A stretch of DNA of 64,000 bases from Truepera sp. bin119. GTDB taxonomy: Bacteria; Deinococcota; Deinococci; Deinococcales; Trueperaceae. Every line of letters begins with the position of its first letter. Position 1 is the first letter of the stretch. The notes under the pieces were generated by a model. The model was not told the origin of the DNA. It saw only the letters and a list, made by a program, of their open reading frames with translations, and ran no database searches. Position numbers and translations under genes: made by a program. Positions 43,911 through 63,938 of this stretch are shown here, one piece after another. The stretch is from the NCBI GenBank assembly GCA_002239005.1, contig MPNL01000007.1, positions 1-64,000 on the forward strand. Reading direction: 5' to 3'.

Positions 43911-43930
43911 GACCCGAAGAGTCCGTCCTT
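43911..43930 (-). repeat. AAGGACGGACTCTTCGGGTC repeat
   Basis: The minus strand reads exactly the 20 bases found on the plus strand at 53547-53566 inside the methylase gene. Confidence 0.8.
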
Positions 43931-44071
43931 TGGAATTTCAGGCTATCCTGGTCCCTGGGGTACCTCCAGACCGAGGGGATTGGGTGTCCCCTTAGCAGCG
44001 ACTATAGTCCGTGTCACAGAAAAGCTTACGCTACCGGCTGACCGATCAGATTTGGAGTATTCGGGAGTTGC

Positions 44072-44193: not shown

Positions 44194-44817
44194 TCACCAA
44201 GACCTGGGCCTAGGTATCAGGCTGCCATCTCGGAGCGTGTACGGATCGGGGAATTGGTGGCGGCGATAGCGGTCTCCCTTCACCCTAAACGTTCGTGAGA
44301 CCAGTTTCGCCAACTCCTGGCTCTTCCTTCTGAACGGAAAGATGAAGATCACCTCTTTGTGTGGAAACATCCGTTTTGCCACCTTCACACCCGCTGCCAA
44401 GTCAGTGTCGCCTGTCACGAGAACGGCTGCAGCGCATGCGTCATCTGCTAGCTGCTCGATGAGGTGAGCAGCTATCGCAACATCTGTCTCTTTCTCCTCA
44501 TGGCTCTGCCACTGGTGCCCACAGTTACGGCACGACACCGTTTTGCTCTTGAACTGCCCTAGGACCACATCGACCCCTGAATCCTCCAGGCAGGAGATAT
44601 AGGTCCTGTGACGATTGACTGCATCAGGGTCACGGCTTTGCAGATGTGTGGCCAGAGCAGAGAAGTACAGCACCCTGTTAAGCGTGGCTGCACGGTCGAT
44701 ATGGGGTAGATAGCTCTTGCAGAAGCCGATGAGGTCGAGCCAGCGTACCCCTGTCCCTCCCAGATCTTTCAGAGAGTGGTAGAGGTTGAAGCCGTCGATC
44801 AGGAACGAAACTCTCAT
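44194..44817 (-). CDS. NYN domain protein (LabA/DUF88-like, PIN-fold nuclease)
   Basis: 207 residues. FLIDGFNLYHSL at the N-terminus supplies the first acidic residue of the NYN active site, EKETDVAIAAHLIEQL the second, and AAVLVTGDTDLAAGVKVAK the third and fourth Asp; this is the LabA-like NYN pattern of a metal-dependent RNase. Between them HRNCGHQW-type Cys residues (Cys-Arg-Asn-Cys) could bind zinc as half of a ribbon. Such proteins often sit in defence or RNA-decay loci. It lies 114 bp after the HTH protein gene on the same strand and is probably transcribed with it. Confidence 0.83.
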   Translation of the reverse strand: MRVSFLIDGFNLYHSLKDLGGTGVRWLDLIGFCKSYLPHIDRAATLNRVLYFSALATHLQSRDPDAVNRHRTYISCLEDSGVDVVLGQFKSKTVSCRNCGHQWQSHEEKETDVAIAAHLIEQLADDACAAAVLVTGDTDLAAGVKVAKRMFPHKEVIFIFPFRRKSQELAKLVSRTFRVKGDRYRRHQFPDPYTLRDGSLIPRPRSW

Positions 44818-46249: not shown

Positions 46250-49200
46250 CTACTCTTTCTCGAATCCCTGACTCGTGAACTTCAGTGTCCGGCTGTTCTC
46301 CGTAACCGTGCGAACGACCTGGTCCGGTGCACCTGAGGGTACCTCGGCTTCGATCTCGAGCGTCACCGTGACCTTGGCATCGATCAAGCCGGAAAGGTGT
46401 GAGATGACCTCGTCAGCAATCTGGCTCGCGTCGCGGCCTACGCGCGCTGAGTCGAGCGCGACGGTCCCATGAAATCGGGTAGGTTGCGTTACCGTCGGCG
46501 TGTCAGGTGCCTGCTCAGTGCCCGATCCTTCACCCGAAACCGGGCTGGTTCCTGCTACCGCAGGCTCGGTCGGCTTCGCACTCTCGGCATCGAGCTGTTG
46601 ACGCGCAACAGCTGGTTTGACGAGCAACCCCGGGGCGTCTACGTCCGGTAGTGAGACGATCTGTCCGCCACGCAAACCACGGTATCGCTTCGCCTCATCA
46701 TCAAAGCTGTCTGCGAACGCAAATGCTTCTTGCTCCCAGATTAGAAGCGCGACCCCGTCGCCGATCGCATTCAGCAGAACCGTCGGTTTGCTGATCCGGG
46801 GCAGATAGAGATACCGCGCGAAGTCCTCGACGATCTGTTTGATCGACACGTGGTCGCCGCGCCAGAGTGGCACGCGGTCTAGTTCGAGGCGCAGCCGGGT
46901 GGCAGCGAAGCCGGTAACCAGCAGTTCATCGCCTCTTAGCTTCTTGCTTGCTCTGCCAGCCAGTGAGTCCTGGCCCGACAGCCTCATGGTCTGCCACTCA
47001 ACCGAAGCGTCGGGACTGGCCTGAACCGGTACCAGGAGCCACTGGTAGGTCTCGGGGAGCCGGGCCGTAACCGCATTGGACGCCGCTTCCTTTTGGACCT
47101 CAGCCTGCCTGACCTGATGCGGCGAGAGGTCGAGTTGTTCGCGTTCGCCGAGTATCGATTCCCAGGCCAGGTAGCGTCGGATCGCCTCATCGAGGTCCTG
47201 CAGCCTCGTCTTGTCTGCAGCCAGAAACACGAGCGTGTTGCGATAGATCCTCGGCGCACTACCCCTCGATTCCAAGATGGCTTTCGCAGCGGTCTCGGCT
47301 GGGTTGCCCTGTTCTCTGCTGTAGGGTGTGTCGATCCCGAGTACCACGAGTCGCGCATCAAGATCGTCTGGAACATCCTGTCCAGACTGCGGTAGGGGGT
47401 GGACGCGACTAAAGTCACCTGCCTGACGAAGGTCGGATCGGAGCCGCAAGTCGAGTTCCTGCACCACCCTGTCGCGGTCCCGTTTCAACTGCTCGGCGCG
47501 GTCCTCCGCCAGCTTTGTGACGGTCGGCTGGGTAGAGTACCAGTAACGAGGACCATCCTGGTAAAGGTAGGTCGCCGCACCGGCTAAGCGCCTGAGTGCA
47601 TCGCCGAAGATCGCTGGAGACTCCCCCGGCATGGTACAGCCGAGCTTGACGCGGCGATCCTCGAGGCCTCGGTGGGCCGCCTCAGCAGTGGGTGCGGATC
47701 CGAGGTAGATCGTCCGCGCCACACGTCTGGAAGCGGTGAACTTACCGAGATTCGGGACCTCACCGTCGAGCCGCAGTGGGAGCGAGTTGGGTCCGTCTAC
47801 GTCCTTCTCAATAACCGGCACCCAGTTGTCGCTGAGATATCGGGTCAGTTCGAACTGTACGCGTCTATCGTCGATCGCAATGTTCGCGGGCAAGATCAGC
47901 GGGTTCCTGTCCCCTCTCTCCCACAGGCTGTGAATGACAGCTGCCATCAATCGCAGCACGCCCCGCGTTCGTTGGAACTTCACCAACGTCGACCAATCGG
48001 TGTAGAGCCGGTCAAAGATCTCAGGATGGATCGGATAGGCCGCCTTGATCCGCTTCTCGTAGTCAGCGTCCCGGCACTCCGGCGGAAACTCCAGATGCTG
48101 TGTCCGATAGAGTTCGGCGAAGGCCCGCGCAACCACATCCCGATCCTTGAATTGGCTAGGGTCTGAAAAAGGCTCGAAGAGCCGCCGCCGGACAATCTCG
48201 AAACCCTCCTCGGCGCTCGCCGGTCGCCAGGACGACTCGATACGCCCGATCACGTTCTGCAGCCGATCGAGTGCCTCGCGCCCGCGTTGCCCACCGACCT
48301 CGACATCATCGGCCTGGGTGTGAGGCGATCCGGCCGTATCCGAAGCTGGCAAGCTGATCACGAGCAGGCAGTTCTTGGCGAGCCTGGACGACTCCGTCAG
48401 CGCCTGGGCGAAACTGAACTGGGTCTCAAAACTTCCGGCGGGGAGGTCGCTCTGGTCATGTAGCTGGCGGGCGTAGGCGACCCACTCATCGATGAGGACC
48501 AGGCAGGGGCCATATTCATTAAAGAGCTCCCGCAGGGCGTCACCTGGATTCGTGGCCCTTTCGTCGTCGGCCGCGATCCGCGCGAACGCCCCCTTGCCAC
48601 CTAGTTGCCATGCCAGTTCGCCCCATAGCGTGCGAACGACCGTGCCATCCGGTTTGGTGACTGGGTTTCCCGGCGAGATCTTGTTTCCGACCAGCACTAC
48701 CCGGCGCGCTGTTGCGAGTTCCGTCGCTTCCGCCTCCTGCAGCACCGCATCGATACCGACCAGTTTTCCCGGTGCCGTCCCGGAGAAGAGATGGTATAGG
48801 GCAAGCATCGAGTGGGTCTTGCCGCCACCGAAGTTGGTCTGTAATTGAACGACGGGATCACCGCCTCTGTCTGCGAGGCGGCGGATTGCCCCGACCAACA
48901 GGCCCTTCAGGCTTTCTGTCAGGTAGGTGCGCCGAAAGAACTCGACCGGGTCCCGGTATTCGTCCGTTCCTTCACCCAAGTGCACCTGCCAGAGGTCAGC
49001 GGCGAACTCGGCCTGTTGGTAGCGCCCGCTCGCGACATCCTTGTGGGGTCTGACGATCTCCCGCCAGGGCTTCAGGCGGGTGGCCGCAGCGCTTTCTATC
49101 GTGGTGCCCGCCTGCTTGCGCCGCTCCCCGCGCACCTGTTCTTCGAAGCGCACCCGCAGCAACTCCATCTTGGACTTCTCCAGCTCTGCTGACTGCGGTG

Positions 49201-49573
49201 CCGATACGGCGGCGAGGAGCCGACCGACCGAGTCCAAGGCTCGATAGGCGTCATCGCTGGAGAAACTCTCCTGGTGCGCCCACTTGTTGCGGTGGCCGCG
49301 CAACTCGCTCACCAGACTCCGCTCGGCAGGTCCAAGAGTCTCGCGAAAGACCTCGTTCCAGGTCTCCCACATCAGCTTGAGCAGCCCGGCCGCGTCCCAT
49401 TCCAGGATAGGTTTGTTCGCTAACGCACGGTCTTCGGCGTAGTCACGCAACCTGTGGGCATCTAAGCGCCACGCTTCAACCGCACTCTTCACCTCTCGGG
49501 TTACGAACGGACCCAGGCCAGCTTTTAGTAGATCAAGGGCCTTGCCGACCCGTTCATGATTGCTAATCGCCAT
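46250..49573 (-). CDS. HEPN-DUF499 family AAA-type ATPase of a defence operon
   Basis: 1107 residues from the ATG at 49573; the frame runs on to 50170 but that part is the overlapping gene read out of frame. Residues 1-120 form a Swt1-like HEPN domain with RNKWAH at 95-100, the R-x4-H motif of HEPN ribonucleases. The ATPase follows: Walker A NFGGGKT (247-253), Walker B-like CLVLIDEWVAY, then the conserved DUF499 region with PIHPEIFDRLYTDWSTLVKFQRTRGVLRLMA. The C-terminal 150 residues hold a Pro/Ser/Thr-rich linker and a small domain (FHGTVALDSARVGRDASQIADEV). DUF499 (COG1483) ATPases recur beside DUF1156 methylases in predicted anti-phage loci. Last gene of the five-gene operon, 14 bp after the Schlafen-type gene. 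Confidence 0.88.
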   Translation of the reverse strand: MAISNHERVGKALDLLKAGLGPFVTREVKSAVEAWRLDAHRLRDYAEDRALANKPILEWDAAGLLKLMWETWNEVFRETLGPAERSLVSELRGHRNKWAHQESFSSDDAYRALDSVGRLLAAVSAPQSAELEKSKMELLRVRFEEQVRGERRKQAGTTIESAAATRLKPWREIVRPHKDVASGRYQQAEFAADLWQVHLGEGTDEYRDPVEFFRRTYLTESLKGLLVGAIRRLADRGGDPVVQLQTNFGGGKTHSMLALYHLFSGTAPGKLVGIDAVLQEAEATELATARRVVLVGNKISPGNPVTKPDGTVVRTLWGELAWQLGGKGAFARIAADDERATNPGDALRELFNEYGPCLVLIDEWVAYARQLHDQSDLPAGSFETQFSFAQALTESSRLAKNCLLVISLPASDTAGSPHTQADDVEVGGQRGREALDRLQNVIGRIESSWRPASAEEGFEIVRRRLFEPFSDPSQFKDRDVVARAFAELYRTQHLEFPPECRDADYEKRIKAAYPIHPEIFDRLYTDWSTLVKFQRTRGVLRLMAAVIHSLWERGDRNPLILPANIAIDDRRVQFELTRYLSDNWVPVIEKDVDGPNSLPLRLDGEVPNLGKFTASRRVARTIYLGSAPTAEAAHRGLEDRRVKLGCTMPGESPAIFGDALRRLAGAATYLYQDGPRYWYSTQPTVTKLAEDRAEQLKRDRDRVVQELDLRLRSDLRQAGDFSRVHPLPQSGQDVPDDLDARLVVLGIDTPYSREQGNPAETAAKAILESRGSAPRIYRNTLVFLAADKTRLQDLDEAIRRYLAWESILGEREQLDLSPHQVRQAEVQKEAASNAVTARLPETYQWLLVPVQASPDASVEWQTMRLSGQDSLAGRASKKLRGDELLVTGFAATRLRLELDRVPLWRGDHVSIKQIVEDFARYLYLPRISKPTVLLNAIGDGVALLIWEQEAFAFADSFDDEAKRYRGLRGGQIVSLPDVDAPGLLVKPAVARQQLDAESAKPTEPAVAGTSPVSGEGSGTEQAPDTPTVTQPTRFHGTVALDSARVGRDASQIADEVISHLSGLIDAKVTVTLEIEAEVPSGAPDQVVRTVTENSRTLKFTSQGFEKE

Positions 49574-49587
49574 CGGTCTGTGCTCTC

Positions 49588-50817
49588 TTACTTTGCTGCC
49601 CAGATCACGAGCCTCAGCTCGCTGTCGTCGATGAGACTGTACTCGGGCCATCGCCCTGACAGCTCGTGGCTCTCGTTCAGAATGATCGGTACTCCATCGC
49701 CTCTTCGGTCCATTATACGTGTCCGCCCGAGTTCCTCGCCCTCCCGAACCGGGAAACGCGCCAGCAGCGAAACGATCAGTTCGTTCCGACTGTACTGTCG
49801 CAGGTGCATGCTGTCCGGGGTGAGCGTATTCGCCAGGGCCCCGGGGACATAGAGCTCGAGGCGGTCCCGAAACATGTGGAAGCGAATCCTGGCGCCGGCC
49901 ATCGAGTAATCTCTGTGAGCGACCGCATTGACCAGTGCCTCGAACACCACCCGATCGCTGAATTGAGGACGCTCTGCCCGAGCCATCTTTTTCGTGGCTG
50001 CCACCCGCATGTTTCGGCGTGCGAAGTGCAGTGCCTCGAAGATCTGCTGGTCCAGCGGCCCGACTATATCTCGCGCATCGCTCTGGTAGTTGATGTCCTG
50101 CCGCTCGCCGACGTAGCTCACTGCCTGAATTTGCGCGTGGGGCAGCCAGCGTTCCTGCTCCTGGGTGCATAGCAGCATACCGGCGACCGTGATCCGAGCC
50201 GCGCCATCTTGGTCGTCGGCGACGATCCGAAGTTTGCGCAGTATGTCCTCGGTCAGTGCACCGTCCTCCCGCAAAAATTGGCGAGTCAACCCACTATCTA
50301 GGTCTTCCGGTGAGGTCCCAGGCACCGGCGACTCGTCGAAGCGAATTACACGGCTCTGGCTGCGCTCTTGGAACAGCCGGGCTAGGACTTCCGGCGACAG
50401 TTCGCGCTTCGAACTGCCGATCCTGCGGAAATAGCCGCCTGGACTCTTGTGGACGAACAGGCTGCGGACAATTTCGACGCAGAGCACCGCAACGAGGCTG
50501 CCGTCGGCGCTGGGCAGTTCGACCTTGCGGATCACCGCGTCGAGCGGGGGCTTCACGGAGTCGTTGCAGATTTCTCGCACCCACGCCTCGACCGCGTCCA
50601 GCCTATCGACCGGGATGCCCAAGACTTCATGGCTCTTGTCTTCGACCCCCAGTACGACCGTCCCACCCCAACCGTTGGCCATGCCGGCCAACTCGTCGGC
50701 AAATTCGTTGCGCCTGGGCGCCGTGACATTGGAACCCGTTAGCAATACCCGCTTGAGTTCCAGCGTCGAGTCCTCGCCGAGGCGGATGCGCCGCGCTAAC
50801 TCGTCGCGCCCCATCAT
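49588..50817 (-). CDS. AlbA_2/Schlafen-type ATP-binding protein
   Basis: 409 residues. The N-terminal AlbA_2 (Schlafen-fold) domain reads LGEDSTLELKRVLLTG, then EFADELAGMANGWGGTVVLGVEDKSHEVLGI, with the usual ExK nuclease-like residues. The C-terminal part has EALVNAVAHRDYSMAGARIRFHMFRDRLELYVPGAL, an HATPase_4 (GHKL) signature. Solitary members are annotated as transcriptional regulators or putative helicases; relatives with Schlafen domains act as RNases. The ATG at 50817 overlaps the stop of the PHP-ATPase gene by four bases, so the two are coupled. Its presence inside a DUF499/DUF1156 operon is unusual and suggests a nucleic-acid cleaving or sensing role (inference). Confidence 0.88.
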   Translation of the reverse strand: MMGRDELARRIRLGEDSTLELKRVLLTGSNVTAPRRNEFADELAGMANGWGGTVVLGVEDKSHEVLGIPVDRLDAVEAWVREICNDSVKPPLDAVIRKVELPSADGSLVAVLCVEIVRSLFVHKSPGGYFRRIGSSKRELSPEVLARLFQERSQSRVIRFDESPVPGTSPEDLDSGLTRQFLREDGALTEDILRKLRIVADDQDGAARITVAGMLLCTQEQERWLPHAQIQAVSYVGERQDINYQSDARDIVGPLDQQIFEALHFARRNMRVAATKKMARAERPQFSDRVVFEALVNAVAHRDYSMAGARIRFHMFRDRLELYVPGALANTLTPDSMHLRQYSRNELIVSLLARFPVREGEELGRTRIMDRRGDGVPIILNESHELSGRWPEYSLIDDSELRLVIWAAK

Positions 50818-53537
50818 GTTTCCGGTCTCTGCGGGGGCATAATTCGCTGGTAGCGGTTCTCGAACGCTTCACGGCCACCCTCCATCACGCGACAGATTTC
50901 GTCTCGAACCTTTCGTTCCTGAAGGCCGCCCTGGCAGGCGATGTGACTCTGACCCGCGCTGGCTTTGAGCGAGAGCACGAGTTCGGCGTCGCCGTGGACC
51001 ACGATGTTGGGATTGTGGGTGACGACGATCACTTGACGTTTGGTCTTCGTTTCCCGCAGCTGGCTGACCAGCAGTTCGTAGATGAGGGTGTTGTCCAGGT
51101 CGTCCTCGGGCTGGTCCAGGATGATCGGCTCGGAACCGTAGCCCAGAACGAAGGCCAGGAGCGCAGCGGTCTGTTGCCCCGGCGATCCTTGGGTGAGAGG
51201 CCTCCAGTTACTGGCTGGACGATCTTTGAAACTGACTTTAACAGCGTCTTCCGGAAGATACAGAGCGAGACGGTCGATTCTCTCGGGCGGGACTTTTTTC
51301 AGGGCTGTCGTAAAGCGCTGGTCTTTCGCTGGCCAGGAATCCGACGCTCCTGACAGGAACTGGCGCATCTTTGCAACCATATCGTCAAGTTTCCCCCAGT
51401 TCCATGGCTGACCCTGTTCGGGCTGAATCCTCTGGGTGAGTGCTTGGCGGTCGCTCTCGAAGCGCTCGATGCCGAGAATCTCGATCAGGTCTTCCGCGAG
51501 ATGTTCGCAGTTCGCGTATTCGTCTATTTCAACGAGGATGCTCTCGTTCGAGGTCTCCTTCACAAAGCGCTGGCGTCTGCAGCTCAGTTCACGGCGTTGC
51601 TCGCGGTATTCGGCAAGCGTCCTAGCGGCCTCTTTGTCTAGTTCCTCCGCCCGCTCTCGATCTTGCTCTAGGGCCTCAATTTCTCGCTCGATTCTAGCCG
51701 CCTGTTCCACCAGGTCGTCGTACTCATTTGGATCGGAAATGCCTTCTTCGGCGAGTTGGGCGGATGCTTCCTCGAATTCGTGCTTGCTGGTGGCTACTGC
51801 CTCACCCCATTGGCAGGCATCCGCGCCTGTGCGAATTCCCTCGACATCTAGCTGCGCTCGCTCGACCCTCTGGCGCACATCCTGCTGAAGATCTTCGACT
51901 GTCCGCCTCAGCGCTTCGTGCGCACGCCTGAGATTCTCCCAGGCTGCTTCGTCCTCGACTGTGGTGCCGAGGTCGAGGTCGGCGACCGAAAGCTCTTCCG
52001 CGCTGTGTCCCACCGACTCCACCGCTTGTAACGCCTCCTCCAGAATCACTTCCCAGGTGTCGTTCTGCCGACGCCGCTTCCGATACTCGTTCAAGACCAG
52101 CGCTTGTCCTTGCTCGAGAACTTTTAGCTTATGCCGACTGTCCACGAGTAACGCTTTGCGGGCTGGCAGCTCACCTGCCTGCTTGGACGCTGCGCGAGCC
52201 TGGGCGCATAGAGACAGGTAGCTGGACTCTAACTTCCTGATATTGTGATTCTGTTCTGCACCACGGACGGTCTCGCTATCGTCGATGACCGCGAGCAGAG
52301 CGTTCGGATCCTGAGCGAGAGCGAAGAGTTGTTTCTGGCTGTAGATGCGGACTGGGAAACGCTCGCGGATATCCCCCTCTTCGGGGATTTGTTCGTCTCC
52401 ATCGAGGTGGGCGATCGAGGGGGCCGTTGCGTTTTGACTCCAAGAGAGAACGAAGCGCTCACCGTCCTTGCGGTACACCACTTCGATGAGCGTCTCATTC
52501 GTCAGCAGTCCCTCCTCCTGGCGCGATGAGGGAACGCGCATGCGGCGATCGAAAAGACTTCGCAGCGAGCCTTCTTCGCTGCGGTCGCTGCCGTCGAGTT
52601 CCGCTTCCCGGCGGAGCGTCTTGCGGCAGAAGTCGATAAGCGTGGATTTACCGGTTCCCCGTCCGCCGATGATCGCATTCAGCCAGGGGTTGAACGCAAT
52701 CTTGGTCGGGGACGGTCGGCCGATGAATTTGCCCTTGTGAACGGTTATGCTCTCAAGAGCCAGGGCGGCGTGGGCATTCGGATTACCCGGCTCTTCCCGA
52801 ATGGTCGGTTTGAGGGAGGCGGTGCCATCCAGCAGCGCTAGGCGCAGACCCTCTAGGTTCGGGCGCGTCATCTTCACCCAAGTAAAACGCCGCCCTAACT
52901 CGTCGAAGTCGTGCCCGTCAGAGCACCATACCTGCGAGATTCTGCGGCCAATCTCGCGTCGGGATCCATCAAGCCAGCTTTCGTCGATTTCCCTGTCTGG
53001 ATTGACCTCGACCGCAGTCAGGTTCCGATGTCGCAACTCCGCGATTAGCTGCTGGCCGTCATGCTGGAGCAGTCCGTTGGGTCCGTTGACATGGGCACCA
53101 ACGATCAGTGCGTCGTCCCCGCACTCCTCCAGAATATGCTCGACACTAAGCGAGGACCGGGCAGCCTGCTGACCGCGTTGATTGACGGGAATATTCACTT
53201 TGGTGAGCAGCTCTTCAACGTGCTGCCGCGTGCAAGCCGGATCCATCAGTAAGAGCAGGTGAACGCTGTCGCTGGTAGTGAGTTCGACGCCGGGGAAGAG
53301 AACGAGGGGGTCCTTCATGCCTTGGGTGGCCCGCTGCAGTTCGGAGATACCTGCAGCCGTATCGTGATCAGTGACCGCCGTAGCATGGAGGCCCGAGGTA
53401 TGGGCAGCGCCAATCCACTTCTCCCATTTTTGAGCGTCCCGACCCTCCTGGGTCGCGAAGTCGGACGACGCTGGGGAGTGCGTGTGGAGGTCTACGCGCC
53501 ACCAGCGCGAGCCCGGCCATTCCCACTCTGCACTCAT
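50814..53537 (-). CDS. PHP domain plus SMC-like ATPase (TrlF family)
   Basis: 907 residues. PHP phosphoesterase domain at about 14-240: VDLHTHS (His18, His20), VTDHDT (57-60), GVELTT, GAHVNG and CSDGHDF (Asp207, His209), so the metal site appears complete. Then a P-loop, GGRGTGKST (291-299), a long coiled coil (about 430-710) and the SMC/RecN-like end with QTAALLAFVLG, the Walker B IILDQPEDDLDN and VVTHNPNIV. This is the TrlF-type architecture, related to OLD/RecF-like nuclease ATPases. Likely a DNA-end or DNA-structure sensor that drives the PHP nuclease; this is inference. It overlaps both neighbours by four bases. Confidence 0.88.
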   Translation of the reverse strand: MSAEWEWPGSRWWRVDLHTHSPASSDFATQEGRDAQKWEKWIGAAHTSGLHATAVTDHDTAAGISELQRATQGMKDPLVLFPGVELTTSDSVHLLLLMDPACTRQHVEELLTKVNIPVNQRGQQAARSSLSVEHILEECGDDALIVGAHVNGPNGLLQHDGQQLIAELRHRNLTAVEVNPDREIDESWLDGSRREIGRRISQVWCSDGHDFDELGRRFTWVKMTRPNLEGLRLALLDGTASLKPTIREEPGNPNAHAALALESITVHKGKFIGRPSPTKIAFNPWLNAIIGGRGTGKSTLIDFCRKTLRREAELDGSDRSEEGSLRSLFDRRMRVPSSRQEEGLLTNETLIEVVYRKDGERFVLSWSQNATAPSIAHLDGDEQIPEEGDIRERFPVRIYSQKQLFALAQDPNALLAVIDDSETVRGAEQNHNIRKLESSYLSLCAQARAASKQAGELPARKALLVDSRHKLKVLEQGQALVLNEYRKRRRQNDTWEVILEEALQAVESVGHSAEELSVADLDLGTTVEDEAAWENLRRAHEALRRTVEDLQQDVRQRVERAQLDVEGIRTGADACQWGEAVATSKHEFEEASAQLAEEGISDPNEYDDLVEQAARIEREIEALEQDRERAEELDKEAARTLAEYREQRRELSCRRQRFVKETSNESILVEIDEYANCEHLAEDLIEILGIERFESDRQALTQRIQPEQGQPWNWGKLDDMVAKMRQFLSGASDSWPAKDQRFTTALKKVPPERIDRLALYLPEDAVKVSFKDRPASNWRPLTQGSPGQQTAALLAFVLGYGSEPIILDQPEDDLDNTLIYELLVSQLRETKTKRQVIVVTHNPNIVVHGDAELVLSLKASAGQSHIACQGGLQERKVRDEICRVMEGGREAFENRYQRIMPPQRPET

Positions 53538-56500
53538 GAGCCACCTAAGGACGGACTCTTCGGGTCCGTATCGTCAGTCCCAAACAGCCCGGCCTGCCGT
53601 GTACGTGCACCTGCTTGTACCAAACGGGTTATCTCGGGCCAACTCTGCACCAGTCCGTTGTAGGAGAGCGCCTCCGCAGCACGTTTCTTGCGCTCGCACA
53701 GCGTGTACAGACGGTAACACAACTCACGAGCAACCTCGGCTTTGGCACCGAGTTGGGTAGCGAGTTCGGCTGCCGCACCTTCGCCGCCGGCCTCTAGCGC
53801 TCGGACCAGATGATGAACCATCTCCCAGGCGGTCAGCCTTGGGTCGGTAGTCGGGCCCCAATCCTCGGGCAGTTCACCGGGCTTCAGCAGTCTGACCTTG
53901 CCGCCCTTCGAGGCTAGAATCTCCGCCTCGACCAAACCGGCGACGCTGGTGTTCTTTGCCTTGGAGAGCGTCTCGGCGGTGCCGTACTCGCCCTCATCGA
54001 AACCAGACTGCTCAAACCAGGCGAGTGCCCAGCGACTGTCTGCATCGAAATCACCTTCCTGTTCAGCCAATGCCTCATCGAGAGTTTGGTTGATGAGGGC
54101 CAGCGCTTCGCGCACCGAGAGGGCGTTGCCCTCGGCGTTGAGCACCCTAGCGTAGCGAGTGTAGACCGCCATGCCCGGCCCGATGGCAGCCTGGGCTAGG
54201 TCGACCGGTGCAATGTTGCCGCGCTGCAAGTGAATAAGGGCCTGCGGCAACTCGGCCTTGAGGGCGGAGACGAACTCACGGCGGGTGGCGATGGGTGCTT
54301 CCGACGGGCGAGGGTAGCATACTAGAACGATGCTGGAGGCTAGTGCGTTTGAGGCTAGTGCATTTGATCGAGCCCCCCGTTCTGTTCGGATGGGCCAGGT
54401 ACCGCTGATGGTGAAGCCAGCGCGGATCAGGGCGTCTAGGAAGGTCTCCCAGCCGGTGGAAGTAGTACCCCCCGCGCCCCGACTTTCTGACTGCTTGAAG
54501 GCGTAGTAGATGGTGGTTGGGAAACCCGGATGCAACCGATAAATAAGGGACTCGAGAGCGTGAAACATACCGTCCACGAAGAACGCTTCTGCTTTCCCCT
54601 TGTTGCCGTGCCGGTGCGGTGCAGCGACGAGCTCCTCGGCCTTGGGTACAGCCATAGTGGCGAATAGGTCAGGAAAGACTTGCCGCAGCGACCGACGCAA
54701 CCAGACGTAGAAGAAGTCCGACAGGTCAGCATAGCCGACGTTGTCATAGTAGGGTGGGTCCATTGATGTGATGAAGCCCAGGCTTGGCGGTTGCGGGCAG
54801 CGGGTAGCCTGCAGACCCGAAGAGTCTGATTTTGAAGAAGCGGCGTCCGCTTGGAACGCCCGGCCATTATGACCATCGATGGGTAGGGTCTCGACTGCCT
54901 TAGCGATCCAGGCAATCTGAGCCATCCAGTTCTGGGTTGAGTTGGAGAAGATGTTGACCTCGGCGTAGTCCCATACCATAGGAATTGCTTGACGCGCGAA
55001 AGCGTGGGCGACAAAGTCGCCCACGCTTTGCCAAGTTGCAATGGTGCACCCGCTGTCGGCTGCTCGGTCTACAGCAAACGCCGAGTACACGGCTACGGCC
55101 TCAGCATAAGCCCTCGCGCCAGTGCCCCCCGACCCTAGAGGTGCATCGTCATTTGCTATGCCCGCAGCCACCGCATCCCGCTGTACGCGCTCCCGAACTT
55201 CCGCGACCAGATCGCTGAAGGTGTTTAGCGCCACAAGCTGGCGGTCGGTGAAGAGGTCTCCGAAGGTGGTGAGGCCGTACCGCACCGTCCAAAAATTGCG
55301 GGGGTCATCTGGTAGCGCCGAGTCCGGTTTCCATCCAGGTGTTGCCTCGGCAGCCCTCTCTTCGTGTACCTGCACCGGGGGAAGGTACACCCGTCCGCGC
55401 TCCCCCTCCGCTACGACCGCCATCAGCCTTGTCCCCATGCGCCCGGCCCTGCCCTCAGCCTTGATGTAATCGCCAACAATCGGCGCGCCCGACATCAAGC
55501 ATCTAAAATTCGCCCCACGCGACAGTTTAGTGCCCATCTTCGCCGTCCCTACATCCGGTGGTAGACCTACCCTGACTTCAAACCGGTACCCTCGCCCCTC
55601 GATTACCGGCTCAACGTACGCTTCCTTGCCCTTCTTCGACGACAGAATGAAGGTCGAAGCCAACGGCACCTCGACATCGTTAAACGCCGGGTTCGGACTC
55701 CTAACCGTCCGCGCCCAGAGCCAGGCGATCACGGTCAGCTTACGTCCCTGATACACCTTCAGATCGGGCCGCTTCCGCACCATCTCCGCAGTGACCTCGA
55801 CCTTCGGATACAGATGCCCGAGACGCTTCTCAGCCTCATCGCGCATCCACTTGCCGTAGCAACGCACATCCTCGGCCAAGCCTTGGGCCCCTTTCCAATC
55901 CCGCGCGAAGACCCGCTGAGCCTGTCCTCCTCTCTCGTCCTCACGGCTCCGCGGATTAACAGGCGGCTTCCCTGAGAACCTCGGCGGTATCTCGATCATT
56001 GCCTTATTGATCAGTACCGCCACCGGATTCAGGTCACTCGCGTAGCTCTCGAGCCCGAGACGCTGCGCCTCGAGCGGAAGCGCTCCACCCCCTGCAAACG
56101 GGTCATGGAAAGCGGGCAGCTTATTCCGATTAAACAGCTCTCTGGCCTGCGGGTGGCCAGCGTTCTCTGCACAGGCCCGCCGCCAACTCTGCCAGATCTC
56201 AGCCCGCGCCCGCTCGAGTACCTCTTCGTTCGTAGTGTTCTCCCAACGCACTAGGTCTTCGAGGATCGCAAATAGTCGCTCCCGCTCCTGCTCAGCGATT
56301 ACCTCTTCCAACGTCGGCTCTGGTGGCGCAGTGACGTTGTCAAAGGCAGGAGTGTTCGGGTACACCCGCGCTCGCTTCGCTTCATGCAAGGTTGGGCTCT
56401 TCGGGCCTGCCAGGCGCTTTCTTAGCTCGCGCTCAGCAGCCCGCTTCTTCCCAAGGTCCGAGAGCAGCACATCGACATAGCCAGCCGGGTCATCGACCAT

Positions 56501-56656
56501 CTGCGCAAAGATCACCGCCCGCGCCGCGGCTAACGGCCGACGGGCCCACCAGAGGTGTAACGTGCTCGGATGACCGTGGCGGATGGACTTCTCCCGGGCT
56601 GACGCCTTGTTGATGGCATCGAGCGGCAGCGCCACTTCAATGAGCTTCTTCTTCAT
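53534..56656 (-). CDS. DUF1156 adenine-specific DNA methylase (COG1743)
   Basis: 1040 residues. IEVALPLDAINKASAREKSIRHGHPSTLHLWWARRPLAAARAVIFA is the DUF1156 domain. Motif I is HDPFAGGGALPLEAQRLG (about 184-201); the catalytic motif IV is DPPYY (633-637), the [DN]PP[YF] type of N6-adenine or N4-cytosine enzymes. These proteins are the modification component of predicted defence loci. Oddities: three copies of the AAGGACGGACTCTTCGGG-type repeat lie inside the gene, one encoding the last residues (DPKSPSLGGS), one inserted before the DPPYY motif, one near residue 84, and a 15-bp tandem duplication encodes ASNALASNALAS. The stop overlaps the next gene by four bases. Confidence 0.9.
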   Translation of the reverse strand: MKKKLIEVALPLDAINKASAREKSIRHGHPSTLHLWWARRPLAAARAVIFAQMVDDPAGYVDVLLSDLGKKRAAERELRKRLAGPKSPTLHEAKRARVYPNTPAFDNVTAPPEPTLEEVIAEQERERLFAILEDLVRWENTTNEEVLERARAEIWQSWRRACAENAGHPQARELFNRNKLPAFHDPFAGGGALPLEAQRLGLESYASDLNPVAVLINKAMIEIPPRFSGKPPVNPRSREDERGGQAQRVFARDWKGAQGLAEDVRCYGKWMRDEAEKRLGHLYPKVEVTAEMVRKRPDLKVYQGRKLTVIAWLWARTVRSPNPAFNDVEVPLASTFILSSKKGKEAYVEPVIEGRGYRFEVRVGLPPDVGTAKMGTKLSRGANFRCLMSGAPIVGDYIKAEGRAGRMGTRLMAVVAEGERGRVYLPPVQVHEERAAEATPGWKPDSALPDDPRNFWTVRYGLTTFGDLFTDRQLVALNTFSDLVAEVRERVQRDAVAAGIANDDAPLGSGGTGARAYAEAVAVYSAFAVDRAADSGCTIATWQSVGDFVAHAFARQAIPMVWDYAEVNIFSNSTQNWMAQIAWIAKAVETLPIDGHNGRAFQADAASSKSDSSGLQATRCPQPPSLGFITSMDPPYYDNVGYADLSDFFYVWLRRSLRQVFPDLFATMAVPKAEELVAAPHRHGNKGKAEAFFVDGMFHALESLIYRLHPGFPTTIYYAFKQSESRGAGGTTSTGWETFLDALIRAGFTISGTWPIRTERGARSNALASNALASSIVLVCYPRPSEAPIATRREFVSALKAELPQALIHLQRGNIAPVDLAQAAIGPGMAVYTRYARVLNAEGNALSVREALALINQTLDEALAEQEGDFDADSRWALAWFEQSGFDEGEYGTAETLSKAKNTSVAGLVEAEILASKGGKVRLLKPGELPEDWGPTTDPRLTAWEMVHHLVRALEAGGEGAAAELATQLGAKAEVARELCYRLYTLCERKKRAAEALSYNGLVQSWPEITRLVQAGARTRQAGLFGTDDTDPKSPSLGGS
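53547..53566 (+). repeat. AAGGACGGACTCTTCGGGTC repeat at the methylase 3' end
   Basis: Identical over 20 bases to the minus strand of 43911-43930. It encodes the last residues (DPKSPSL) of the DUF1156 methylase. Confidence 0.8.
54336..54365. repeat. 15-bp in-frame tandem duplication
   Basis: GAGGCTAGTGCGTTT then GAGGCTAGTGCATTT, one base different. It adds five codons (the protein reads NALAS twice) to the methylase without shifting the frame. It could be slippage-prone. Confidence 0.7.
54815..54829 (-). repeat. Partial AAGGACGG-type repeat inside the methylase
   Basis: GACCCGAAGAGTCTG on the plus strand matches 14 of 15 bases of the repeat at 43911-43925. It encodes the segment SDSSGL, about 20 residues upstream of the DPPYY motif. 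Confidence 0.5.
56388..56407 (+). repeat. Diverged AAGGACGG-type repeat in the methylase 5' region
   Basis: AAGGTTGGGCTCTTCGGGCC shares about 15 of 20 bases with the repeat at 53547. It encodes GPKSPTL, near the DPKSPSL made by the 3' copy. Confidence 0.4.
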
Positions 56657-56671
56657 TCCACCCTGCCCTCC

Positions 56672-56690
56672 AAGAACGGACTCTTCGGGT
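56672..56690 (+). repeat. AAGGACGG-type repeat between helicase and methylase genes
   Basis: AAGAACGGACTCTTCGGGT, one mismatch to 53547-53565. It lies in the 43-bp space between the helicase stop and the methylase start. Confidence 0.65.
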
Positions 56691-56699
56691 TAGCCCCGT

Positions 56700-59600
56700 T
56701 TAGGAGGGCTCTCCCGCTCGGGCGAGCAGCTCCTCGAAATCGTAGTTGACACTATTCGCCCCAAAGTCCGGTTCACGCCGGAAGGGCTCCCGAAGGTAGT
56801 GAACCTGGTGCCCATCCCCGTCTAGGAACTCCACGATGCCAAGGATGTAATCCTCCGGTTTATTCAGCGAGTAGAGAATCTCGTTGCGGGTAACCGTGAT
56901 GGTTTCTGCCCCGCTAACCCGGCCTTTGACCTCGATAAACCGGAGCTTGCCTGTGTCCGGGACCCGGCTCTCGATATCGTAACCCAGCCTCTCGAACTCC
57001 TTGTCGGTCGGTTCATATCCGAGGCCCCGCTCAACCTCCATGATGATCTCGCGGGCATGGGCAGCAGCCTCCTGGGTATCAATAGCCGTTCTTGTCCCCT
57101 CAGGCTCACGCCCAGTCATGGCGTCGATGAGTCCCCTGGGCACGACCAATAGTCCCCCCAGCACCACCGGCGGCAGGGGAGAGATCTGCGCTTCGCGCTT
57201 GAGTTCCTCGAGCCGCCTTTGCAGCCGCCCCTGCAGGTCGTCGGCGCGCCTGCGGGCCTCACCAGAATTGAGCCGGGCACCGGCCTTGCCTGCCCGCTCC
57301 TTCAACTTGAGTTGTTCAGCTTGGTGATCCCAGTGGTTGATCTCCTTGGTGAGTCGGTCCTTCACGGCCACTTCGGTCTTGGTGATCAGGTCGAGCTTTG
57401 CCTCTCGGACCTCTGCCAGATGCTCCGGGACCACCTCCGCTACGGCGTAGCTCTCCACCCTCTCTTCCATGCCTCGGTCGATCCAGGCGCACTCCGGTCG
57501 CTCGAGGATCTGCTCCAGATCCGGCTCATCGTCGGCGAGGGGCCGATAGTCGAGATAGGGGGCATAGTGCAGATGCCGGGTCACGCCGTCGGTGCCTAGT
57601 TCCACATAGAGCATCCGTTTGGAGATCGTCCGGCGCTCTCCCGAACGCATCAGGCTGGCATCCCGGATGGCGTGCTCTAGATAGAAGAGCATCCGCGGCT
57701 TCGTCCCCTGGTCACGCTCGTCGACCAAGGCAGCGCCCCGCCGCAAGAGATCCCGGTTCCGTTCCAAGGTCAGATCGATAACCGCGTCGAGCAGCGGGTG
57801 TCCTGGGCAGATGAACGCCGCTCGGGGCTTCCCTTGGGGGGCGATGAGCGATTTCTCGAAGGCGATGCGTTCATAGCGGGGGAGTACCGGCTCCCTGAGG
57901 CCGATGAGTCGATCTCGATTCCGCACTGCGGCGGGGACGCGGGTGATCTCATAGCGACGGGCCTCACGCTGCCTGGTGACACCGCCGAGTCGTCGGAACG
58001 CCTCCCGAAAAAAGGACTCGATGTAGTGAGGTTGGAGTCTGCGGGCTTCGGCTCGCTCCATCTCCGCGCGGATGGAGTGAACCTGACTCAGATCCATAGT
58101 GTCGCGGGCGAGCGCACGCTCTTCGAGCAGATCCCGGAACTTACCGTGGTCGAGGGCATCATCGACAGCCGTGGTTAGGCGCGCCCGGACCTCCGGCTGT
58201 TCCCCGTAGCGTATCGCCTCGATCAGGAGTTCGCGGAGGGGACGCCCCTCGAAGTGGAGCTTGCCGAGTACGTCGAACACCTTCCCGCCGAGCGATTGGC
58301 GCGCCTGCTCCAACTTCTCGAGGAGCTTGTGGTAGACGTCGCCTTCACGGGTCTCAGTTGCCACCAAGTTCCAGAGGTGACAGACTTCGGTCTGACCGAT
58401 CCGGTGAATCCTGCCGAACCGCTGCTCCAATCGATTGGGGTTCCAGGGGAGGTCGTAGTTCACCATCAGGTGAGCCCGCTGCAAGTTGATCCCCTCCCCG
58501 GCGGCATCGGTAGCGACCAGCACCTGAACCAGCGGATCGTGCCGGAAGGCCTCCTGCGCTTTGAGCCGCTCCTCCCGGCCCATACCCCCGTGCAGCAGCG
58601 CTACGGCCTCCTCCCGGCCCAGGAGCGTGGTGATACGCCGTTGTAGGTAGTTGAGGGTGTCCCGGTGCTCGGTGAACAGGACCAGTTTCTGGTGGGGCGA
58701 TGAGGTCGGCCCCGGAGTCTCACCTTCGCCGGGCCGGGTCTCCGGTTCCGCACTCTGCACCGCAGCTCCGCTGGCGCTGAAGATCCTGTCGAGGAGGCCC
58801 GCCAACCCTCGCCACTTTGTGTCCGCACCGCTGCGCAGCACGCTGTGCGCTAGCCGCTCCAAGCCCGTTAGGGTTGCAATCTCCGCCTTGAGTTCGGCGA
58901 TCGACTTCGCCGCGGTCGCCTGGTCTAAGACCTCCTTCTCAGCCTCCTCGACCTCGTCCTCTGGTGCCTCGTCGAGGTCCTCGAGATCGTCGGGGTCGAG
59001 TTCCAGGGCGGAGACGAATCCGATGCCGGTCTGGCTACCACGCTGCAGCACCTCAAACTCACGCAAGCGGCTCTCCAGACGCTCCCGGCGGCGGCGTAAC
59101 GACCGGTAGATGGCCTCGGGCGAGGAGGCGAGTCTGCGCTGCAGGATCGTCAGGGCGAAGCCGACGGTGCCCGCTCGCTTGTCGTTCTCGAGCGCCTCCG
59201 CCCGATTGAACTCCTCACGCACGTAGTCGGTGACGGCTTTGTACAGTCGGGCTTCCGGCTCTGAGAGTTGGTAGGAGACCGTGTCGGCTCTGCGTTCCGG
59301 GAAGAGTGGCGTGCCGTCAAACCTGAGCAGCTTCTCCTTCACCATCCGGCGCATCAGGTCAGAGACATCGGCTTTGTGGACGCCGTCGCGAAAACGTCCC
59401 TCGAACCGGTCGCCGTCGATGAGCGCCATAAAGAGTTGAAAGTCTTCCTCTTTGCCGCTGTGTGGGGTGGCCGTCATTAAGAGGAAGTGGCGGGTCAGGG
59501 TCGACAGCAGCTGTCCGAGCCGGTAGCGCTTAGTGTAGCGGATCTCGCTACTGAAGAACGTCGCCGACATCTTGTGAGCCTCATCGCACACGACCAGGTC

Positions 59601-60275
59601 CCAGCGGCAGTCTGGTGCCTGCAACTTCTGCTGCACCTCGTCGTCGCGAGCGAGCTTGTCCAGACGAGCAATGGCGAGGTCGGTCTCGTAGAACCAGTTG
59701 CCGGTCCGAGCCGTTTCGAGCTTGTCGTTGGTCAGGATCTCGAAGGGTAGCTGGAAGCGGCGATAGAGCTCATCCTGCCACTGTTCGGCGAGGCTGCCGG
59801 GGCAGACAACCAAGCATCGCTGCAGATCTCCTCGGGCGATCAGTTCCTTGATGAGCAGCCCTGCCATGATCGTCTTGCCGGCGCCTGGGTCATCGGCGAG
59901 TAGGAAGCGAAGGGGTTGCCGGGGCAGCATCGCTTCGTAGACGGCGGTGATCTGATGCGGCAGCGGCTCGACATCTGAGGTGTGAACAGCGAGCACCGGG
60001 TCGAAGAGGTGGGCGAGGTGGATCCGCTGGGCCTCGGAGACGAGTCGGAAGAGCGCGCCATCGCCATCAAAGCTCCACGGCCGGCCGACCTCGACGAGCT
60101 CGAGTCGGGATTCGTCGTCACGGAAAAACAGGTCTTGGTCGAGCTTTCCGGTAGGCGTCTTGTAGGTGACCTCGAGCCCTTCGGTTCCCAGCCACTTCAC
60201 GCTGATAACCGTTACCAAGCTGTTCGGCAGAACTCCCTGCACTGTCGCATTGGGCTTGAGGTCTTCCAACTTCAT
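56700..60275 (-). CDS. SNF2-type helicase with DUF3883-like C-terminus
   Basis: 1191 residues, superfamily 2 DNA translocase. Walker A DPGAGKT (129-135) after FLLAD, Walker B DEAH (231-234), LLMTATPHSGKEEDF (motif III), and the second lobe with LVFTEHR-like LVLFTEHRDTLNYL, VLVATDAAGEGINLQ and NPNRLEQRFGRIHRIGQ (motifs V-VI). The C-terminal part is a helical region followed by a DUF3883-like domain (GYDIESRVPDTGKLRFIEVKGRVSG), whose FIEVKG resembles a restriction-endonuclease-fold ExK site. CAGGAGA precedes the ATG at 60275 by seven bases. First gene of the five-gene operon; similar helicases occur in DISARM-like and DUF1156 loci, but drmA, drmB and drmC are absent. Confidence 0.9.
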   Translation of the reverse strand: MKLEDLKPNATVQGVLPNSLVTVISVKWLGTEGLEVTYKTPTGKLDQDLFFRDDESRLELVEVGRPWSFDGDGALFRLVSEAQRIHLAHLFDPVLAVHTSDVEPLPHQITAVYEAMLPRQPLRFLLADDPGAGKTIMAGLLIKELIARGDLQRCLVVCPGSLAEQWQDELYRRFQLPFEILTNDKLETARTGNWFYETDLAIARLDKLARDDEVQQKLQAPDCRWDLVVCDEAHKMSATFFSSEIRYTKRYRLGQLLSTLTRHFLLMTATPHSGKEEDFQLFMALIDGDRFEGRFRDGVHKADVSDLMRRMVKEKLLRFDGTPLFPERRADTVSYQLSEPEARLYKAVTDYVREEFNRAEALENDKRAGTVGFALTILQRRLASSPEAIYRSLRRRRERLESRLREFEVLQRGSQTGIGFVSALELDPDDLEDLDEAPEDEVEEAEKEVLDQATAAKSIAELKAEIATLTGLERLAHSVLRSGADTKWRGLAGLLDRIFSASGAAVQSAEPETRPGEGETPGPTSSPHQKLVLFTEHRDTLNYLQRRITTLLGREEAVALLHGGMGREERLKAQEAFRHDPLVQVLVATDAAGEGINLQRAHLMVNYDLPWNPNRLEQRFGRIHRIGQTEVCHLWNLVATETREGDVYHKLLEKLEQARQSLGGKVFDVLGKLHFEGRPLRELLIEAIRYGEQPEVRARLTTAVDDALDHGKFRDLLEERALARDTMDLSQVHSIRAEMERAEARRLQPHYIESFFREAFRRLGGVTRQREARRYEITRVPAAVRNRDRLIGLREPVLPRYERIAFEKSLIAPQGKPRAAFICPGHPLLDAVIDLTLERNRDLLRRGAALVDERDQGTKPRMLFYLEHAIRDASLMRSGERRTISKRMLYVELGTDGVTRHLHYAPYLDYRPLADDEPDLEQILERPECAWIDRGMEERVESYAVAEVVPEHLAEVREAKLDLITKTEVAVKDRLTKEINHWDHQAEQLKLKERAGKAGARLNSGEARRRADDLQGRLQRRLEELKREAQISPLPPVVLGGLLVVPRGLIDAMTGREPEGTRTAIDTQEAAAHAREIIMEVERGLGYEPTDKEFERLGYDIESRVPDTGKLRFIEVKGRVSGAETITVTRNEILYSLNKPEDYILGIVEFLDGDGHQVHYLREPFRREPDFGANSVNYDFEELLARAGEPS

Positions 60276-61924: not shown

Positions 61925-62491
61925 ATGGCGTTTACGGCGCTGTTTGATGCGAACGTGCTTTACCCGGCACCGTTGCGTGATCTACTTCTGCAGCTTGCAG
62001 TGACAAAGCTGTTTCGGGCGCGGTGGACGGACGCCATCCATGACGAGTGGACGCGCGCGGCAGTTCGGAACTGGCCTGATGTAGAACTTGCGAAATGGGC
62101 GAGCTTGCGCAAGCTTATGGATGCCCATGCAGAAGACTGCCTAGTGACGGGCTTCAAGCCGTTGATCGATATTCTGGACCTGCCTGATCCGAACGACCGA
62201 CATATCGTGGCGGCGGCGGTCAAGGGGCGTGCCGACGTTATCGTCACCTTCAATCTCAAACATTTCCCTGCTGATACCTTGAACGCCTACGACATTGATG
62301 TGCAACACCCGGACGTGTTCATTCGACATTTGATCGATCTGCATCCAGCTGCGGTCGTAGCTGCTGCCAGAACAGTTCGCGGGCGGCTTAGGAGACCGCC
62401 CAAGACGGTTGAGGAGTATCTGAAGACGCTCGAACGTCAGGGGCTCGTGGCCACCGTATCGGCGTTGCGCGCTTACGAGGAGGTGCTCTGA
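61925..62491 (+). CDS. PIN domain toxin
   Basis: 188 residues. FTALFDANVLYPAPLRDLLLQLA gives the first PIN Asp, DEWTRAAVRNWP an acidic residue of the site, and DILDLPDPNDRHIVAAAVKGRADVIVTFNLKHFP the remaining Asp residues; this is the longer PIN_3-like type with a C-terminal helical extension. The family cleaves RNA, often tRNA. Its stop (TGA) shares a base with the ATG of the CD-NTase gene, and GAGGAGGT lies in its last codons, so it is translationally coupled to CBASS. Confidence 0.87.
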   Translation: MAFTALFDANVLYPAPLRDLLLQLAVTKLFRARWTDAIHDEWTRAAVRNWPDVELAKWASLRKLMDAHAEDCLVTGFKPLIDILDLPDPNDRHIVAAAVKGRADVIVTFNLKHFPADTLNAYDIDVQHPDVFIRHLIDLHPAAVVAAARTVRGRLRRPPKTVEEYLKTLERQGLVATVSALRAYEEVL

Positions 62492-63441
62492 TGGGGCTTA
62501 CAAACAAGCAGCTTCGCTACTTCGACGTCAATGTGCTCCGTCTCGAGAAGGAAAAGCGCACGCAGTACCACGGGCAGGTCGATCGTCTCATCAAGACGCT
62601 AAATGCGGGCCTTAAGGAGAACGACGGCATCATCGTGAAGCGTGCGGTTAAAGCCGGCTCCTTCGCCAAACACACGATCCTTCGTAAGGCAGTGGATAGA
62701 AATATTGATGTCGACGTGGTGTTCTATATCTCCGGTCGTAGCGTTGATGACGCGTCGCTCAAAAGCCTGAGCGATGAAATCTTCGACATCCTGTCGGGAA
62801 TGTATCCGAACAAGTCGATCGAAGACTTCGAACTCGGGCGGAAGACCGCGACGGTCACCTTCGTCGGATCCGGCATTAGTGTCGATGTTGTCCCTGTGAT
62901 CGAGGACGAAGGTAAGCCCGGTTATGGATGGCAGTTCGATCCAGACGATGATTCTGTCACCGAGACTTGCGCGCCCTGTCAGATTCAGTTCGTGAGAGAC
63001 AGGAAGGCTGTCGATGCGGATTTCCGGACGCTTGTCCGGCTTGCCAAGCTATGGCGGACATTCAACGAAGTCGATGCACTGAAGTCGTTCATGATCGAGT
63101 TGATCATGGCACATGTGCTTGATGTTGAAGGCGTCGACGGCTCCATCCAATATCGTTTCTTGAGGTTCCTGCTCTACATCGCGCAGTCGCAGCTTCTGAA
63201 GATTATTAGCTTTCCAGAAAATACGCCGCCTTTGCCCGATTTCGCCGACCCGGTGGTGATCGTTGATCCAGTCTGTTCGGCGAACAATGTCGCCGCCCGC
63301 ATGTCCGAGTCGGAACGTGCCGGGGTCGTGGACGCTGCCCATACGTCCTGGGAGGCGGCTACGTTCGCATCAACTCAATCTGATCACAGCATCTGGAAGG
63401 AAGAGATATTCGGGCCGCGCTTCAGAGTGGAGGACGATTGA
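62491..63441 (+). CDS. CBASS oligonucleotide cyclase (CD-NTase, clade C/D type)
   Basis: 316 residues. The nucleotidyltransferase site is visible: Gly56-Ser57 in KAGSFAKHT, the Asp pair Asp73/Asp75 in NIDVDVVFY and a third Asp132 in ISVDVVPV. The C-terminal part (ADFRTLVRLAKLWRT and SFMIELIMAHVLD) matches the OAS1-like helical domain of CD-NTases. Such enzymes make cyclic di- or trinucleotides upon phage infection; HORMA-linked ones belong to clades C and D and make cyclic trinucleotides such as cAAA. Start at 62491, overlapping the toxin stop. The HORMA gene follows with a one-base overlap. The effector is not in the window. Confidence 0.9.
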   Translation: MGLTNKQLRYFDVNVLRLEKEKRTQYHGQVDRLIKTLNAGLKENDGIIVKRAVKAGSFAKHTILRKAVDRNIDVDVVFYISGRSVDDASLKSLSDEIFDILSGMYPNKSIEDFELGRKTATVTFVGSGISVDVVPVIEDEGKPGYGWQFDPDDDSVTETCAPCQIQFVRDRKAVDADFRTLVRLAKLWRTFNEVDALKSFMIELIMAHVLDVEGVDGSIQYRFLRFLLYIAQSQLLKIISFPENTPPLPDFADPVVIVDPVCSANNVAARMSESERAGVVDAAHTSWEAATFASTQSDHSIWKEEIFGPRFRVEDD

Positions 63442-63938
63442 TGGCGCTGACCGCAACAACCACAGAGACCTACAGCTGGACCGAAACGGATATCGAGCAC
63501 GTCATGAGTCGGTTCCATGCCGATCTCAAAATGATCGCACAGAGCACAGGCACCTGGTCCGAGAAGTTGACGGACGACGTTGCTCACGATGTCGAATATT
63601 TGGCGAAACGCGGATATCTGAAGGAGGCGCACGTCATGCTATTTAGTTACGGCGTAGAAAAGCGGGCGACCGTCTACAAGGTCAACGAGCAGGCCGAGGG
63701 TCTGACGTCCAATCGACCGGGCGGGGTGCTTTGGCCGCGGCTTCCTGACCCGACTTTGGAGATCGTGCTGTCTTATACATCGCGTTATGACACCGCCGCT
63801 CGAGAGCGCGTTGCCAGATATCTTAATTGCAATTGGGTTCCGACTAAGCTCAGCACCAGTCATGTGGCACTGACATTGAGCGCGGGGCGCTCGTACGCCC
63901 GAAACGGATGGGGATTGCAGCGAGAGGATTACAGCTGA
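63441..63938 (+). CDS. Bacterial HORMA protein (CBASS Cap7)
   Basis: 165 residues from the ATG at 63441 with GGAGGA upstream. YSWTETDIEHVMSRFHADLKMIAQSTG, DVAHDVEYLAKRGYLKEAHVMLFSYGVEKRATVYKVN, and SNRPGGVLWPRL followed by WVPT and the C-terminal GWGLQREDY match what I recall of the bacterial HORMA-1 family. In type III CBASS the HORMA protein senses a target peptide, closes, and activates the CD-NTase; a TRIP13-like ATPase resets it. Its place right after a CD-NTase gene supports this. Confidence 0.85.
   Translation: MALTATTTETYSWTETDIEHVMSRFHADLKMIAQSTGTWSEKLTDDVAHDVEYLAKRGYLKEAHVMLFSYGVEKRATVYKVNEQAEGLTSNRPGGVLWPRLPDPTLEIVLSYTSRYDTAARERVARYLNCNWVPTKLSTSHVALTLSAGRSYARNGWGLQREDYS

Follow-up and report, generated by a model that had tools for sequence, protein, structure and literature searches.

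An Hma defence operon of Truepera sp. with an embedded TrlF-Schlafen pair, a predicted back-up growth-arrest module

Our study concerns five adjacent minus-strand genes in a 64,000-nucleotide stretch of DNA (hereafter the window; contig MPNL01000007.1, positions 1 to 64,000) from the draft genome of Truepera sp. bin119, which comprises 91 contigs and 3.2 Mb. These open reading frames lie at 46250-60275 of the window and form one operon, in the order hmaA, hmaB, trlF, a trlG-like gene (hereafter trlG) and hmaC, with successive spacings of 43 bp, -4, -4 and 14 bp (Table 1). The 4-bp overlap of hmaB and trlF is an ATGA, and trlF and trlG also share 4 bp. The mechanically called frame of hmaC opens at 50170, and we place its start at the ATG at 49573, 14 bp past the trlG stop, a choice backed by relatives that align from residue 1. 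Motif positions were checked in all five proteins, and the catalytic motifs are intact throughout. An earlier sequence-only reading of this DNA had given the same layout and the same domain names, and had described a five-gene defence operon. That the genes belong to defence and are made together still stands, but they are not one new five-gene system, because genes 1, 2 and 5 match a system that already has a name.

This system is Hma (helicase, methylase, ATPase), also named Type-1 BREX-related (Type-1 BR). The three outer genes match the corresponding PADLOC models with high scores and lie on one strand with small gaps, except at the insert. HmaA carries a Walker A motif (DDPGAGKT, residue 128), a DEAH box (231) and the D...ExK of its DUF3883 domain (YDIES 1099, FIEVKGR 1113), while HmaB carries motif I (DPFAGGG, 185) and motif IV (DPPY, 633). 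HmaC combines an N-terminal HEPN motif (RNKWAH at 95; HEPN_Swt1, E = 1.5e-34) with an ATPase motif (GGGKTH at 249), and thus has the HEPN-DUF499 fusion known in a subset of Hma / Type-1 BR. An operon with HEPN-DUF499 and SNF2-DUF3883 was already noted in 2013 (PMC3710099), the name Hma was introduced in 2021 for a putative helicase-methylase-ATPase system present in 26 phyla (PMC8565338), and an analysis of 2026, which gave it the new name Type-1 BREX-related, counted 2446 taxa, 1370 of them with the HEPN-DUF499 fusion and 79% with a helicase-nuclease fusion (PMC12839542). Given these models and descriptions, the outer three genes are already known. Other systems fit poorly. The DrmD model of DISARM gave 368 bits against a cut-off of 610, with no drmABC in the operon and the searched neighbours; neither were pglZ, brxC or pglX of BREX found there; and the models of Type-2 BR / PLD-DUF1156-DUF499 (NF042962/3/4) gave 170, 92 and 157 bits against cut-offs of 1200, 1000 and 1100. 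The sequence-only reading was therefore right to set DISARM and BREX aside for want of drmABC, pgl and brx genes.

The two inner genes (3 and 4) form a module of their own, the TrlF and Schlafen/GHKL pair of the temperature restriction locus (TRL) of Photorhabdus. The window TrlF scores 561 bits against the TrlF family NF045780, above the curated cut-off of 350, and is followed downstream by an AlbA_2-HATPase_c_4 gene, TrlG, as in the TRL pair. Assignment to Ppl (NF042955) was rejected at 494 bits, the cut-off being 1000. The protein has a PHP domain (about 1-250) and an SMC-like ATPase (about 260-900) divided by a coiled coil. In 34-38 relatives, the PHP residues H18, H20, D57, H58, E85, H149, D207 and H209 are invariant, and so are nearly all residues of the Walker A, signature, Walker B and H-loop motifs. 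Variation is concentrated in the coiled coil (about 420-750), where mean identity is 33-51% versus 69-91% near the C-terminal ATPase motifs. A structure model (pLDDT 87) has as its closest folds SMC-type ATPases, including JetABC, Lamassu, RecN and Rad50.

For TrlG, profile matches in PDB include SLFN13, SLFN14, SLFN5 and SLFN11, and the fold search returned SLFN13/14/5 and the SAMD9 tRNase domain. Its residues E15, E20 and D60 align with E205, E210 and D248 of SLFN13, the Schlafen RNase triad (E-x4-E ... D) whose mutation reduces RNase activity, and are invariant in 20 alignment rows. The GHKL ATPase motifs are NAVAHRDYS (297) and RGDG (372). Because of the aligned triad and the SLFN profile and fold matches, we infer that TrlG is an ATPase-gated RNase. 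The Photorhabdus TRL causes growth arrest at 36 C, which is lost by trlG mutations or deletion of the operon (PMC7554251). In plasmid pYR3 of Yersinia ruckeri, a TRL homologue named in the same study, TrlF and TrlG are adjacent and overlapping; a search with the window's gene 4 recovered this TrlG at E 6e-22, and the pYR3 TrlF passes the NF045780 cut-off with 582 bits. When the published TrlG suppressor positions were mapped through the Y. ruckeri protein, simple numbering transferred only S16; motif spacing would place N335 and G354 on the conserved N345 and G375, which is suggestive only.

The pairing recurs widely. A Schlafen/GHKL gene lies directly downstream of TrlF on the same strand in 28 of 40 assessable loci, mostly with overlaps of a few bases, a fraction that applies to the loci which patterns from close relatives and a small number of phylum searches turned up in genome collections. 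Pairs occur in Gemmatimonadota, Chloroflexota, Planctomycetota, Pseudomonadota, Cyanobacteriota, Myxococcota, Actinomycetota and one archaeon. This recurrence rules out a chance adjacency of TrlF and the Schlafen gene. The pair stands between hmaB and hmaC not only in the window but also, with the same five-gene order, in one Planctomycetota and one Dehalococcoidia genome (in the latter spanning the end of the chromosome record). Hence, the association is not confined to this genome, whereas the sequence-only reading had named such confinement as a finding that would undo it, and the operon is neither a product of chance nor an assembly artefact. The other finding that it had named as fatal, a match to an already named system, applies to three of the five genes. 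A Chloroflexi locus, L029, has the pair in the same slot with a longer, 570-aa Schlafen protein, and another locus has TrlFG in inverse orientation, between hmaA and hmaB. The pair also occupies the PglX/PglZ gap of BREX, in the order BrxC-PglX-TrlF-TrlG-PglZ-BrxL in two loci and in partial view in two more. A type I restriction-modification (R-M) setting was found on the E. coli plasmid pNDM102337 (hsdR-TrlF-TrlG-hsdS-AAA-hsdM), and in 38 of 5426 complete E. coli genomes hsdR and hsdS flank this same TrlFG DNA.

Some loci depart from this arrangement. At L010 (2337-10639), a type ISP restriction-modification gene immediately precedes TrlF, which is followed by a 345-aa protein of no known kind instead of the Schlafen gene. 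Decayed copies of TrlFG were also seen: in one, TrlF is deleted save for its last 110 residues; in a second, trlG is frameshifted; and in a third, TrlF is in pieces. Such decay might mean that the module is costly to keep.

The comparison of Hma loci with and without the pair indicates that TrlFG is a separately mobile module, inserted repeatedly into a cargo slot of Hma, since the Hma-borne TrlFs are polyphyletic and many Hma loci have HmaB touching HmaC. A single clade of Hma-borne TrlFs was rejected by the approximately unbiased test (p 5e-77 for five, 0.003 for six), and a TrlF from Gemmatimonadota that stands alone groups as sister to that of the window (98/95). The Schlafen tree is weakly resolved, and its L029 row was read out of frame, so that we draw no history from it. 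In the window's own phylum, that of Thermus and Meiothermus, 31 of 111 genomes have HmaC and the window genome alone has TrlF, which leaves 30 of the 31 Hma genomes without it. Among 400 sampled Chloroflexota genomes, 56 have Hma, two have TrlF and none has both. HmaC proteins from genomes of the window's order are identical or near-identical to named plasmid proteins of Meiothermus and Thermus; on a plasmid of Meiothermus taiwanensis, only 6 bp separate HmaB and HmaC. The hmaA/hmaB and hmaB/hmaC gaps of four other Hma loci in the phylum hold unrelated genes, namely toxin-like cargo (Fic, HepT-like, AAA_14-DUF4143 and NYN) as well as HTH and HicB genes, and these gaps thus behave as cargo slots. 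The sequence-only reading had treated TrlF and the Schlafen protein as core parts; with so many Hma genomes lacking TrlF, HmaB often touching HmaC and the pair living mostly without Hma, this no longer holds.

We think it fairly likely that the operon is an Hma with an inserted, co-translated trlF-trlG, in which Hma restricts unmarked DNA and TrlFG provides a back-up growth arrest. The pair would have been inserted in the hmaB/hmaC slot so as to be translated with Hma. As a first line, HmaB would mark self DNA, and HmaC, an AAA+ ATPase, together with HmaA, a SNF2 translocase-nuclease, would restrict DNA without the mark, the HEPN domain of HmaC being a putative reserve RNase. As a prediction, we retain the self-marking methylase, the helicase-nuclease and the up to three effector activities proposed by the sequence-only reading. 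In the back-up line, TrlF, a relative of Ppl, may sense the state of infection, most likely through DNA ends, a change in the nucleotide pool or a blocked restriction complex. It would then release TrlG, a Schlafen-type RNase gated by its GHKL ATPase, which would arrest growth by cutting RNA, probably tRNA. The trigger, the gating by TrlF and the cutting of tRNA are suggested by analogy with Ppl, PARIS and PrrC. Ppl is reported to be a 3'-5' exonuclease whose activity is released by 3' ends and by a depleted nucleotide pool (PMC12904381). The closest working precedent, by analogy, for TrlFG as a guard is PrrC, which resides within a type I R-M locus and is freed when T4 Stp blocks the host system. 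Candidate modules embedded in Hma are reportedly described in a 2024 preprint by Payne.

Several points weigh against this reading. Hma itself has been little tested directly: it was called putative by PADLOC in 2021 (PMC8565338), and citations for the helicase come down to a single later study. No trlF mutants were obtained in Photorhabdus, so the need for TrlF was not demonstrated there (PMC7554251). The second triad residue, E20, is kept in the window's branch, while Yersinia, Pseudomonas and E. coli plasmids encode a TrlG with Gln at this position, which implies that RNase activity may not be general. There is a tight clade of solo TrlF without a Schlafen gene (six loci), and at one locus TrlF stands alone between hmaB and hmaC. 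Finally, most TrlFG pairs that we found are not visibly within another system, and guarding is therefore not obligatory. The prevalence of stand-alone pairs also favours an account to which we give a little less than an even chance, namely that TrlFG is an independent anti-phage system, a Ppl-like DNA exonuclease with an RNase, for which the slots in Hma, BREX and R-M loci serve co-expression and co-transfer only. It agrees with our explanation on what the genes are and differs only on the functional link. The unrelated cargo of Hma slots fits it, as does the report that HEC-05/06 proteins embedded in Hma work independently (PMC11411939), but the way in which the pair returns to the neighbourhood of methylase or specificity genes, in modification systems that are not related to one another, exceeds general clustering, without proving contact. 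The same placement could tentatively be taken further: TrlF-TrlG might be a general restriction guard that has been inserted repeatedly next to a methylase or specificity gene in self/non-self marking systems as unrelated as Hma, BREX and type I R-M, sensing their failure or an attack on them and stopping growth through the Schlafen RNase. In that case, the heat arrest of Photorhabdus would be an autoimmune effect of a module that serves phage defence. We hold this generalization possible but rather improbable.

Growth arrest at 36 C is the only published phenotype of the pair (PMC7554251), and decayed copies exist, as might be expected if TrlFG were a stress or temperature growth-arrest module, or an addiction module stabilizing the island, with no anti-phage role. 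This is unlikely, in our view, given that the pair lies inside defence operons of unrelated phyla, that TrlF is kin to Ppl and joins a PHP nuclease to SMC-like sensor parts, and that no antitoxin-like small partner was found in the window. The single integrated system of five genes could still appeal to the shared operon with its ATGA overlaps and to a gene order conserved in three phyla, yet the scarcity of TrlF among Hma genomes (1/31 in the phylum, 0/56 in Chloroflexota), the polyphyly of the Hma-borne TrlFs and the occurrence of the pair elsewhere make it very improbable.

Table 1. Genes, cargo slot, repeat copies and neighbouring defence genes (window coordinates unless stated otherwise)
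Feature	Position	Strand	Length (aa)	Description
hmaA	56700-60275	-	1191	SNF2 helicase with C-terminal DUF3883/NOV_C PD-(D/E)XK-like nuclease; PADLOC HmaA 1677 bits; Pfam SNF2-rel, Helicase_C, NOV_C
hmaB	53534-56656	-	1040	DUF1156 DNA-adenine methylase; PADLOC HmaB 1512 bits; Pfam DUF1156
trlF (embedded)	50814-53537	-	907	PHP nuclease domain and ABC/SMC-like ATPase; NF045780
trlG-like (embedded)	49588-50817	-	409	Schlafen AlbA_2 RNase domain and GHKL ATPase; Pfam SLFN_AlbA_2, HATPase_c_4
hmaC	46250-49573	-	1107	Swt1-type HEPN RNase domain fused to DUF499 AAA+ ATPase; PADLOC HmaC 1163 bits; Pfam HEPN_Swt1, DUF499
Cargo slot hmaB/hmaC	49574-53533	-		Filled here by trlF-trlG; hmaB and hmaC adjacent in the closest empty Hma (Meiothermus taiwanensis plasmid) and in five other loci
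GACCCGAAGAGTCCGTCCTT copy	43911-43933	+
GACCCGAAGAGTCCGTCCTT copy	53544-53566	-
GACCCGAAGAGTCCGTCCTT copy	56665-56690	-
NYN-domain protein	44194-44817	-		PADLOC HEC-09 169 bits
CBASS operon	61925-63938, running to about 65883 of the contig			PIN protein, SMODS cyclase (NF041116 310 bits), HORMA, TRIP13, Cap17-like effector
Type IIG restriction-methylase	about 66765-69992 of the contig			After the CBASS operon

The genome also contains a 20-bp interspersed repeat, GACCCGAAGAGTCCGTCCTT, in 106 copies (at most two mismatches) over its 3.2 Mb. The repeat was absent from 38 genomes of the same family, and a reversed control gave none. Right at the TrlF junction, one copy codes for the additional C-terminal tail of HmaB; a second occupies the space between hmaA and hmaB, and some appear inside transposase-like coding DNA. 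Beyond the operon, a CBASS operon with HORMA and TRIP13 and a type IIG restriction-methylase form a defence island together with Hma. A NYN-domain protein matches HEC-09, which is known as a candidate from Hma loci. The Hma of L092 contains a relative of this protein (150 bits), and that of a Thermus oshimai plasmid contains an NYN gene.

The embedding of defences in Hma is already known, and Schlafen proteins near BREX/BR have been reported in at least 1017 taxa, so that only the pairing with TrlF and its recurrence across system types look new. PADLOC HEC models gave no match to the TrlF-TrlG pair beyond weak ATPase similarity, and a literature search on TrlF/TrlG, in which preprints were thinly covered, returned no defence paper beside PMC7554251. 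As far as we found within this literature, the link of TRL to restriction-system cargo is new. It joins three lines of work, on a temperature-restriction growth-arrest locus, on the anti-phage PHP-ATPase Ppl and on second-line effectors housed within defences that rely on modification. Here, the catalytic triad of vertebrate Schlafens occurs in a bacterial one that is paired with an SMC-like ATPase inside restriction systems, which offers a directly testable model for restriction back-up and for bacterial Schlafen function.

Compared with known systems, the operon shares with Hma / Type-1 BR the helicase-methylase-ATPase order of all three core genes, the HEPN fusion and the DUF3883 nuclease on the helicase, and differs by two extra genes between methylase and ATPase. 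These two resemble TRL in the succession of a TrlF family ATPase and an AlbA_2-HATPase_c_4 gene, but the window TrlG has the full E-E-D triad where that of pYR3 has Gln at the second position, and the window pair has no adjoining trlR-like small gene and is located inside Hma. With Ppl, a single-gene anti-phage PHP exonuclease-ATPase, TrlF shares the full-length architecture, whereas it stays below the Ppl cut-off and has a Schlafen partner. Finally, like PrrC in type I R-M and PARIS in BREX, the pair is a second effector module within the genes of a modification-based system, but here the module consists of a PHP-SMC protein and a Schlafen protein.

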